44,533 nucleotides of DNA, from positions 1-44,533 of IMG/VR virus record IMGVR_UViG_3300034407_002014; one strand, written 5' to 3'. Of the stretch, positions 3,796 through 5,532 are shown in pieces. Position 1 is the stretch's first letter; each line of letters opens with the position of its first letter. This DNA is from a virus. The notes beneath the pieces were generated by a model. That model was given only the letters and a program-made list of their open reading frames with translations, was not told the origin of the DNA and made no database searches. A program made the translations under genes and the position numbers.

Positions 3796-4950
3796 ATGAC
3801 TGTGAAACTAACTCCCCGCAAAAAGTTGTTTGTCGAGGCTGCTGCCGAGATGTTCGGTAATGGTTCGGTGGTCAGCAAGGACCAGATTCGGATTGCTGCT
3901 GAGAAAGCAGGGGTTCCATATCCATCATGGATGAGCCGTACTAAGGTTGGTTATAACAAACATAAGTTGCCGGAACTTGATGTTCCTGCGTTTGTTGCTG
4001 ATGCGGTTGCCGCTGTCGAGGCTCCTGCCGTTGATACGGTCATGAACCTTGTCGCTTCTAATATGGAGAAGCAGAACTTGGTTCCGGCTCCGTTTGAGGG
4101 TTTTGTTCCTTGGGGTAACTATTCCAATCTCAAAAAGATTGTGAAGTCCGGCATGTTCTATCCTGTCTTCATCACCGGCTTGTCTGGTAACGGTAAGACT
4201 CTGATGGTCGAGCAGTTACACGCTGAACTTGGTAAAGAGTTGATCCGACTCAACATCACGATTGAGACTGATGAAGATGATCTGCTCGGCGGTTTCCGTT
4301 TGGTAAACGGTGAAACCAAGTTTGTTCCCGGCCCTGTTATCGAAGCGATGGAGCGTGGTTGCACTCTGTTGCTTGATGAGTGTGACTTGGGTTCTAACAA
4401 GTTGATGGCACTCCAGCCTGTTCTTGAGGGCAAGGGTGTATTCCTCAAGAAAGTCAACAAGTGGGTAACTCCTAAAGATGGGTTCAACGTGATTGCCACT
4501 GCCAACACCAAGGGCAAGGGTTCTGAAGATGGACGGTTCATTGGAACCAACATCCTCAACGAAGCGTTCCTTGAGCGGTTCGCCATCACTGTCGAGCAGC
4601 CTTATCCTACTGCGGCGACTGAGAAGAAGATCGTCATGGGGTCCATGAAGAAATACGGTGAAGTGGATGAAGAGTTTGCCACCAATCTCGTAACGTGGGC
4701 TGAAGTCATTCGTAAGACTTTCTATGATGGTGGCGTTGATGAGATTATCTCGACTCGTCGTCTGGATCACATCGTCAAGGCATTCACTATCTTCAAAGAC
4801 AAGATGACTGCCATTGAGATGTGTGTCGCTCGGTTTGATGAAGATACCAAAGAGTCCTTCATAGACCTCTACACCAAGGTTGATGCTGGTGTAATGACCA
4901 GCGAAGACACTGAAGAAAAAGTTATATATAGGGTTGAAAACGAGTTTTAA
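3796..4950 (+). CDS. cobS: CobS/MoxR-like AAA+ ATPase
   Basis: A 384-residue AAA+ ATPase. Walker A is GLSGNGKT (about residues 128-135), Walker B LLLDECD (about 191-197), sensor 1 ATANT (about 235), with downstream arginines including ERFAIT. The N-terminal 100 residues are a separate small domain. The best match is the CobS/MoxR group, known partner of CobT-like VWA proteins such as the preceding gene. In cobalamin synthesis CobS-CobT-CobN insert cobalt, but no CobN is present here, so a general remodelling role is equally likely. Start 3796 has GAGG five bases upstream; the in-frame ATG at 3766 sits at the predicted +1 and could give a 10-residue extension. Confidence 0.82.
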   Translation: MTVKLTPRKKLFVEAAAEMFGNGSVVSKDQIRIAAEKAGVPYPSWMSRTKVGYNKHKLPELDVPAFVADAVAAVEAPAVDTVMNLVASNMEKQNLVPAPFEGFVPWGNYSNLKKIVKSGMFYPVFITGLSGNGKTLMVEQLHAELGKELIRLNITIETDEDDLLGGFRLVNGETKFVPGPVIEAMERGCTLLLDECDLGSNKLMALQPVLEGKGVFLKKVNKWVTPKDGFNVIATANTKGKGSEDGRFIGTNILNEAFLERFAITVEQPYPTAATEKKIVMGSMKKYGEVDEEFATNLVTWAEVIRKTFYDGGVDEIISTRRLDHIVKAFTIFKDKMTAIEMCVARFDEDTKESFIDLYTKVDAGVMTSEDTEEKVIYRVENEF

Positions 4951-4964
4951 AACCCTATATATAA
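4922..4964. terminator. 14-bp perfect inverted repeat over the cobS stop
   Basis: TTATATATAGGGTT (4922-4935) pairs perfectly with AACCCTATATATAA (4951-4964). The inner bases AAAA/TTTT can extend the stem around a CGAG loop, and the hairpin includes the stop codon of the ATPase gene. There is no downstream T-run, so it may be a weak terminator or a processing/stability hairpin separating cobS from hsp20. Confidence 0.55.
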
Positions 4965-5004
4965 GAGACACAAGGCAATTCGTAAGTCCTTGGAAGGGAG
5001 TTTC

Positions 5005-5091
5005 GGTTGGTTCTCCGTAAAAACCAACCACTTTAACGTATCGCCTTATTGGGATACACAACACAATCTTGCTTAGTAAAGGAGATAAACA
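5005..5091 (+). promoter_or_regulatory. ROSE-like RNA thermometer in hsp20 leader
   Basis: Three consecutive hairpins precede the hsp20 start. The first is GGTTGGTT (5005-5012) with AACCAACC (5022-5029). The second is GTATC (5038-5042) with GATAC (5053-5057). The third is ATCTTGCT (5066-5073) with AGGAGAT (5080-5086) around a six-base loop. The last sequesters the Shine-Dalgarno AGGAG; it has one unpaired G (5071) in the TTGCT segment plus a T-G wobble, which is the hallmark of ROSE elements that control small heat-shock genes in proteobacteria. Melting at higher temperature would free the ribosome binding site. No clear promoter is visible inside the leader, so transcription probably reads in from upstream. 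Confidence 0.62.
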
Positions 5092-5532
5092 ATGGTTACA
5101 AGCAAAGCACTAAGTCTATTTGACAACTTCAATCAACTTACACCCTATGCGGTTGGATATGATCGGGTCTTCGATCAGCTCCAGAAGTACGTTCAAAATA
5201 ATGTACAGAGCTCAGGGTTTCCACCTTACAACATCCAAAAAGGGGGTGACTATAACTATACAATTGAAATCGCACTTGCTGGTTTTAGTAAGGACGATAT
5301 TGAGGTGGAAGTAGCCGAGAATACTCTATCGGTTCGATCAGACAAAAAGGCAGAGCCTGAAGATGAGTTCACATACCATCGTGGTATTTCTTATCGCCGG
5401 TTTGATCGTAAATTTACACTGGCTGACGATATCGTTGTCACTGGTGCAAATCTGGAAAATGGATTGCTTCGTATTGATCTGGAGCGAGTAATTCCAGAGG
5501 AAAAGAAGCCTCGACTTATTGAGGTGAAATAA
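5092..5532 (+). CDS. hsp20: Hsp20 small heat-shock chaperone
   Basis: A 146-residue alpha-crystallin family chaperone, similar in length to IbpA. A short N-terminal region (FDNFNQLTPYAVGYDRVF) is followed by FPPYNI, the alpha-crystallin domain with FSKDDIEVEVAENTLSV and an R-rich FDRKFTLADD strand, the conserved A-x-x-x-NGLLRIDL motif (ANLENGLLRIDL) and a C-terminal tail. It would bind unfolding proteins without ATP, possibly protecting virion assembly. Small Hsps are frequent in T4-like cyanophages and relatives. The AAAGGAG ribosome binding site lies within a ROSE-like hairpin (5066-5086). A rho-independent terminator follows directly. Confidence 0.92.
   Translation: MVTSKALSLFDNFNQLTPYAVGYDRVFDQLQKYVQNNVQSSGFPPYNIQKGGDYNYTIEIALAGFSKDDIEVEVAENTLSVRSDKKAEPEDEFTYHRGISYRRFDRKFTLADDIVVTGANLENGLLRIDLERVIPEEKKPRLIEVK

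Follow-up and report, generated by a model that had tools for sequence, protein, structure and literature searches.

A ROSE-like two-hairpin leader and candidate RNA thermometer upstream of hsp20 in aquatic phages

The window, by which we mean the whole stretch of DNA analysed (44,533 nucleotides), corresponds to a 44.5-kb virus record and carries genes for T4-type replication proteins (clamp, clamp loader, and DNA polymerase), an AAA ATPase, and an Hsp20 protein. BLASTN of the hsp20 locus against phage records returned no match. The gene and the elements mapped in and around its leader are listed below.

4934..4963, + strand: candidate promoter TTGAAA-N18-TATATA, proposed from the sequence; overlaps an inverted repeat
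4997..5029, + strand: upstream H-type pseudoknot; S1 pairs GGAG 4997-5000 with CUCC 5013-5016, S2 pairs 5005-5012 with 5022-5029
5037..5094, + strand: core two-hairpin ROSE-like element (hairpins II and III, spacer, start codon), as matched by covariance model R1; 93 aligned matches conserve the core
5038..5057, + strand: hairpin II in the MFE fold; GUAUC 5038-5042 with GAUAC 5053-5057, CC 5044-5045 with GG 5051-5052, bulged G5043
5066..5086, + strand: hairpin III in the MFE fold, sequestering the Shine-Dalgarno (SD) sequence; AUC-UUGCUU with AAGGA-GAU, G5071 unpaired, U5070-G5082 wobble
5069..5073, + strand: anti-SD motif UUGCU, with G5071 as the bulged G (from the sequence)
5080..5084, + strand: SD sequence AGGAG, 7 nt before the ATG (from the sequence)
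5092..5532, + strand: hsp20, 146 aa, alpha-crystallin small heat-shock protein (phrog_432, E 2.4e-41), ATG at 5092-5094
5096..5105, + strand: UUACAAGCAA in hsp20 codons 2-5, possible alternative partner of UUGCUUAGUAA (MFE fold of 5005-5110 and fold ensembles)

The MFE fold of 5005-5094 comprises three hairpins (I, 5005-5029; II, 5038-5057; III, 5066-5086) and has an energy of -21.1 kcal/mol (z -2.93), a stability reached by none of 200 shuffles. It is identical to the fold put forward in a first-pass annotation of this DNA, in which the last of three hairpins masks AGGAG and TTGCT pairs with AGGA through a U-G wobble and a single unpaired G5071. In hairpin III, U5069-A5083, U5070-G5082, C5072-G5081, and U5073-A5080 are predicted to pair with G5071 left out, and the stem is extended by U5074-A5079, C5068-G5084, U5067-A5085, and A5066-U5086. 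Hairpin II holds a second bulged G (G5043), which the first-pass annotation did not mention. By itself, hairpin III folds at only -3.0 kcal/mol and is matched in stability by 24 of 200 shuffles; because its energy is not unusual, support for it has to be comparative. Within the window, the TYGCT...AGGA pattern occurs before a gene start at the hsp20 leader only.

Hairpin I is present in the fold as first described, but it is not part of the element and most relatives do not have it. It is one stem of a lineage-specific H-type pseudoknot that lies outside the core, between the candidate promoter and the proposed thermometer. We found this pseudoknot in 17 distinct forms across 27 loci, with S1 fully paired (4/4) in all 17 forms, three compensatory types in S1 (including AGAG/CUCU and GAAG/CUUC), and S2 mostly of 8-10 bp. 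It also occurs upstream of hairpin II in six loci (L004, L007, L011, L013, L050, and L072), and it has no Rfam match. The inverted repeat at 4922-4964 is very stable (14 pairs, z -6.18); the candidate -10 lies within it, and the candidate -35 overlaps it. A strict sigma70 scan of the window leader found no promoter. By crude patterns, 40 of 91 distinct leaders have a sigma70-like or T4-late-like sequence upstream, and in several other lineages such sequences abut hairpin II, a position that suggests short transcripts starting at hairpin II. Transcription of hsp20 would start from phage-type promoters.

Relatives were gathered by Hsp20 protein similarity, blind to the leader, giving 128 leaders: the window, 80 IMG/VR loci, 22 and 2 further loci, and 23 cultured-phage records taken from 508 phage records with an Hsp20 match. 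The 22 come from a set of 32, of which L227 and L231-L239 were left out as cut off or missing most of the leader; a scan of viral contigs with the S-PM2 Hsp20 yielded two loci only. The first-pass annotation had held that the thermometer would fall if relatives failed to conserve the UUGCU/AGGAG pairing. They conserve it: UYGC[U/G]...RGGA occurs no more than 60 nt from the start in 121 of 128 hsp20 leaders (87 distinct), against 1.8% of dinucleotide shuffles, and in all 23 cultured-phage records examined, although for S-CAM3 and S-T4 the annotated start was swapped for an ATG after the motif, which makes the finding circular for those two. Cultured carriers include the pelagiphages HTVC008M, Mosig, and HTVC115P, the Methylophilales phage Melnitz-3, the Pseudomonas jumbo phage Callisto, and 18 Synechococcus or Prochlorococcus phages. 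The seven exceptions (L223-L226 and L228-L230) have CUGUCU opposite AGGAGG or UGGAGG and keep hairpin II. These seven leaders are pelagiphage-like, and by inspection the replacement of UYGCU by CUGUCU apparently shifts the bulged G by one pair while keeping the SD pairing.

Covariance models locate the element specifically. R1, a phage-only model built from 44 phage leaders, has one significant match in the window (5037-5094, 58.3 bits, E 2e-13; next best 9.6 bits, E 1.6), and in 16 of 17 whole phage records it gives one strong match, each at hsp20, with all others at E >=0.07. As the R1 training set held most of the tested leaders, we built a second model, R2, from 16 window relatives only. 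Searched against the 23 cultured-phage records, R2 gave 17 matches at E<=0.005, every one at an hsp20 start; the next best were elsewhere in S-T4 (E 0.02), elsewhere in Callisto (E 0.06), and at the HTVC008M hsp20 leader (E 0.065). Five of the 23 leaders are missed by R2 (HTVC115P, S-H38, S-CRM01, S-CAM3, and MED4-213). The weak second Callisto match runs antisense to the genes annotated at that position, and we discounted it as a chance hit.

Compensatory changes, for which the first-pass annotation had proposed comparing the same leader in related phages, are abundant in hairpin II in both alignments used and are also seen in the outer pairs of hairpin III. In A1, a MAFFT alignment of 44 leaders, 81.9% of cells pair (73.3% in shuffles), double-change cells number 72 (33.9 shuffled), and the covariation score is 0.330 (0.196 shuffled). 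A2 holds 93 model-aligned matches in 89 distinct rows, leans toward the structure by construction, and includes one spurious row (L047:2783-2833); it shows both-sided changes at 11 of 15 pairs, 183 double-change cells (60.8 shuffled), and a score of 0.411 (0.172 shuffled; at most 0.123 in slid versions). The bulk of this signal comes from hairpin II, where each of four pairs has compensatory changes in 38-47 of the 89 distinct rows of A2 and the bulged G follows a Y that pairs with G; from A2, RNAalifold predicts hairpin II unaided but not hairpin III. The inner pairs of hairpin III hardly vary and so give little covariation evidence, with the wobble position kept as Y-G throughout the distinct A2 rows (UG in 66 and CG in 23 of 89). 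Its outer pairs were tested on 86 rows aligned by anchors only: the second is paired in 69 rows (56.3 shuffled; none of 5000 shuffles as high), the first in all 86 (84.0 shuffled, p 0.015), and the third in 57 (52.1 shuffled, p 0.033), with no excess pairing beyond the third in these rows. In ACG-2014e the first outer pair is G-C instead of C-G.

The remaining possibility that any SD-bearing leader would pair in this way by chance or artefact, which the ordinary stability of isolated hairpin III might invite, we regard as negligible, since it is already refuted by the R2 hold-out, whose matches fall at hsp20 only, and by the covariation, alongside the motif frequency far above that of shuffles.

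Published descriptions of ROSE-like elements name a U(U/C)GCU anti-SD, a predicted bulged G, and a small heat-shock gene downstream (PMC3669281, PMC11182007, as far as the available passages go), in a leader of two to four hairpins of which the last holds the SD (passages of PMC4166951 and PMC11182007). The window leader has UUGCU 5069-5073 opposite AGGA 5080-5083 in its 3' hairpin, the predicted bulged G5071 and non-canonical U5070-G5082 pair, hairpins II and III in both A1 and A2 with the SD hairpin last, and a small heat-shock gene (phrog_432 Hsp20) downstream. Its anti-SD is UUGCU and not four consecutive U, so it does not belong with the fourU class. Together with a position-wise alignment to certified ROSE_3 leaders, these features bear out the original call of a ROSE-like element at hsp20.

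A covariance-model search with the ROSE families, also proposed in the first-pass annotation, went the other way: the window and its relatives score below the Rfam ROSE gathering scores, which no phage leader tested reached. At gathering score, Rfam found nothing on the window and nothing on 20 relatives, ROSE_3 matched 0/20 loci in each of two sets, and the window leader had no ROSE match even at E<=10. The best phage scores with ROSE_3 (RF02523, gathering 43 bits) were 39.6 bits for the hsp20 leader of virus contig G009 and 34.1 bits (E 0.0013) for Melnitz-3; with ROSE_2 (RF01832, gathering 65 bits), S-N03 scored 26.2 bits. Among 20 phage loci scanned, Melnitz-3 (ROSE_3) and S-N03 (ROSE_2) were the only ROSE matches. 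The sole lax Rfam match to the window was RF02980 freshwater-2 (14.5 bits, E 4.8, against a cut-off of 49.9 bits), which we rejected because its printed consensus lacks UYGCU and the score is 35 bits short.

The phage model does, in turn, recognise certified bacterial elements. A search for ROSE_3 in 194 genomes of one order (Pseudomonadales) gave three matches above cut-off and four below; R1 finds all three of the former (19.6-23.7 bits, E 1.4e-4 to 1.7e-3), aligning their AUGCC..GGGU and CUUGCU..AGGAG column by column, and two of the latter (E 0.014 and 0.36). R1 also overlaps Rfam-certified ROSE_2 leaders in Kosakonia (L297, 27.9 bits), Enterobacter (L279, 11.9), and Lelliottia (L274, 11.0). 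We describe the phage leader as ROSE-like in structure and, given scores below gathering, claim no curated Rfam membership for it.

The fold, its conservation and covariation among relatives, the association with chaperone genes, and the match in each feature to certified ROSE_3 leaders make it likely that this is a short ROSE-like thermometer of two hairpins that would gate translation, its response to temperature being inferred. Hairpin II would act as a stable folding scaffold, and in hairpin III the SD would be paired with UUGCU by weak pairs interrupted by the bulged G, such that the site would be inaccessible to ribosomes in the cold and become accessible as temperature rises; the thermometer would thereby gate translation of mRNA made from phage-type promoters. 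In addition, phage Hsp20 may recognise the leader of its own mRNA in the manner of E. coli IbpA, which would add a signal from protein aggregation.

Fold ensembles of the isolated leader at 5, 25, and 37 C predict AGGA to be 2%, 9%, and 18% unpaired, respectively; when the full leader is folded together with 30 nt of hsp20, these values rise to 21%, 68%, and 84%. The higher exposure arises because 5069-5079 (UUGCUUAGUAA) can pair with codons 2-5, and pairing with UUACAAGCAA (5096-5105) would free the SD. Across 87 leaders, the median SD unpaired at 25 C goes from 0.12 to 0.44 on adding 30 nt of coding sequence, and 34 of the 87 gain more than 0.3. This pairing may either weaken the closed state or sharpen the switch, in models that ignore the non-canonical ROSE core. 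SD occlusion as such is not unique to hsp20: among the 17 genes of the window that have an SD-like motif, two give lower values at 25 C.

Of the alternatives, an aggregation sensor holds up best, although we consider it unlikely as an account of the leader; here phage Hsp20 would repress its own leader until misfolded proteins titrate it, with temperature acting indirectly, and such a sensor may coexist with a thermometer. E. coli IbpA represses itself via the ibpA 5' UTR, with R93 essential (passages of PMC10474464). The residue aligned with IbpA Arg93 is Arg in 37 of 38 phage Hsp20s (Lys in Callisto) and in 27 of 27 bacterial ones, a retention that makes an added aggregation signal plausible; the window protein, a putative binder of its own leader, has this Arg as R102, plus the R97/K98 equivalents. 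Yet an Arg present in every bacterial sequence aligned may owe its retention to something else, many cyanophage Hsp20s have lost the R97/K98 equivalents, and at dnaK and groES leaders (below) Hsp20 would have to act in trans.

A constitutive damper or 5' mRNA stabiliser, unresponsive to physiological temperature, is improbable. It would fit the modest predicted SD opening of the isolated leader (0.02 to 0.18 from 5 to 37 C) and the stabilising role suggested for the first hairpin of Pseudomonas ROSE (passages of PMC3669281), but the kept bulged G and Y-G wobble are the source of ROSE heat-lability in tested examples (as described in parts of PMC3669281 and PMC11342760), and a plain damper has no need of the association with chaperone genes. 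Still less probable, we judge, is an operator at which a repressor protein such as phage RegA would bind the RNA to block translation, with the hairpins presenting the site. In seven cyanophage regions that we retrieved (S-PM2, ACG-2014f, ACG-2014e, S-N03, S-T4, Bellamy, and S-CRM01), the gene immediately before hsp20 is indeed regA or an annotated translation repressor; however, the element also precedes hsp20 in marine alphaproteobacteria and in phages with other neighbours, as well as dnaK and groES, its conserved letters are those of protein-free ROSE, and its variable stem pairs covary while their sequence is not fixed.

The ROSE-like element is tied to chaperone genes well beyond the window. 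We scanned viral contigs with a pattern for hairpin III only (ATCTTGCTT..AAAGGAGA), which gave at least 121 matches in at least 120 loci, counts that represent a sample. Among the matches listed, 119 of 121 precede chaperone genes or chaperone operons and 106 of 121 precede an Hsp20-HMM protein; the other 15 listed matches include eight DnaK, two GroES, and two small ORFs directly before hsp20, the rest being one Hsp20 cut by a contig end, one unknown 93-aa ORF, and one chance-like match without hairpin II. Two loci (L331:8134 and L329:11759) have a 65- or 74-aa ORF between the element and hsp20.

Five dnaK contigs (L327, L330, L332, L333, and L334), whose DnaK proteins are 70-93% identical, have one copy of the element for dnaK and another for the hsp20 that follows; in L328, groES and hsp20 each have their own copy. 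The DnaK of L327 takes its name from phrog_22485 and from records with a DnaK or HSP70 annotation, to which it is 67% identical; the other DnaK proteins were named by a shared start, and PHROGs gave the names GroES and GroEL in L328. A viral origin is supported for G007 by a virion structural protein and a tail-spike match and for G008 by a terminase, and rests on the IMG/VR classification for G002 and G003; the phage markers used were TerL and T4 portal, a Gp23 family search being empty even in controls. The islands in these six contigs consist of an S21-like ORF, dnaK or groES-groEL, hsp20, and a ClpS-like ORF; upstream, L327 and L332 also have a ClpX-like ORF (S21, ClpX, and ClpS named by reading). 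L328 also encodes a tmRNA (L328:3445-3760), with permuted tmRNA and alpha_tmRNA both above Rfam cut-offs. Neither the dnaK-encoding huge phages L344-L347 nor the groEL-encoding Vibrio phages L348 and L349 have the element; the best score among them was 9.8 bits (E 1.3).

On the bacterial side, 27 of 68 loci have an R1 match at E<=0.01, and the hsp20 leaders of 13 loci from marine alphaproteobacteria (L260-L272) reach 41.7-54.8 bits. A 65-row Hsp20 tree mixes phage and bacterial proteins and places the window clade with those alphaproteobacteria (support 95/90). The simple reading is that gene and leader moved together, putatively from proteobacteria and in one or more transfers. Two contigs filed as Parcubacteria and Flavobacteriales MAGs (L259 and L273) encode an Hsp20 close in sequence to those of leader-bearing phages and are probably mis-binned phage DNA.

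The first-pass annotation knew of no ROSE element described in a phage, and we found no report of one among CC0, CC BY, and CC BY-SA papers, where phage thermometers of other kinds do appear. A term search of the available text of two cyanophage small heat-shock protein papers (PMC3827213 and PMC5028025) found no mention of thermometers. Few phage RNA thermometers have been published, and the authors of a 2024 paper call their own earlier find only the second RNA thermometer in a phage genome (passage of PMC11182007). ROSE has been described as always tied to bacterial small heat-shock genes (passage of PMC4166951) and later also to ABC transporters (passage of PMC11342760).

More tentatively, and with confidence a little short of even, we propose that a ROSE-type thermometer is the standard translational gate of aquatic-phage chaperones, forming a regulon read by temperature and by aggregation (through Hsp20 binding) without the host heat-shock sigma factor. 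In cyanophages, pelagiphages, and Methylophilales phages the gated gene would be hsp20; in some large aquatic phages, dnaK and groES would be gated along with it. If the leader works as it appears to, the well-studied laboratory phages S-PM2, P-SSM4, and S-ShM2 carry an RNA thermometer, when and why cyanophages make Hsp20 becomes testable by a simple reporter, viral use before dnaK and groES would widen the ROSE class, and marine phage chaperone output would be directly sensitive to sea temperature.

Among known systems, freshwater-2 shares with the phage leader a hairpin followed by AAAGGAGA..AAUG. The lambda cIII mRNA is reportedly a phage RNA thermometer, in work that PMC11182007 cites as Altuvia et al. 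1989. Other phage examples are the SPbeta blyA fourU (PMC10586365) and a sigma70 thermometer in one gut Caudoviricetes phage (PMC11182007), each taken from passages of the source. All three resemble the present case in that temperature-gated translation is proposed or shown in phage mRNA, but they belong to other classes and genes with no chaperone link, and the passages concerned give no sign of conservation across phage groups. The Synechocystis hsp17 thermometer likewise hides a translation start in a small heat-shock gene leader, but as described in the available part of PMC4166951 it is a single short hairpin, whereas cyanophage leaders have two hairpins with UCGCU.

Closer still are the ROSE elements themselves. 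Enterobacterial ibpA ROSE_2 (RF01832) shares a UCGCU/AGGAG hairpin at the SD of a small heat-shock gene, and R1 overlaps its certified members; it is a larger multi-hairpin structure, and phage leaders fall far under its 65-bit cut-off. In Pseudomonas two-hairpin ROSE, only hairpin 2 melts while hairpin 1 stays closed, deletion of the bulged G locks the element, and hairpin 2 alone suffices (passages of PMC3669281). The Pseudomonas ibpA element (RF02523 ROSE_3; passages of PMC3669281) has the same architecture as the phage leader: two hairpins before a small heat-shock gene, about 57-69 nt to the start, the first with AUGCC/GGGU and a bulged G, the second with CUUGCU/AGGAG and a bulged G. Unlike it, the phage element is phage-borne and below the Rfam cut-off, has a first stem that is more AT-rich in many leaders and a longer or AU-rich spacer, apparently follows phage-type promoters instead of sigma32, and stands before dnaK and groES as well.
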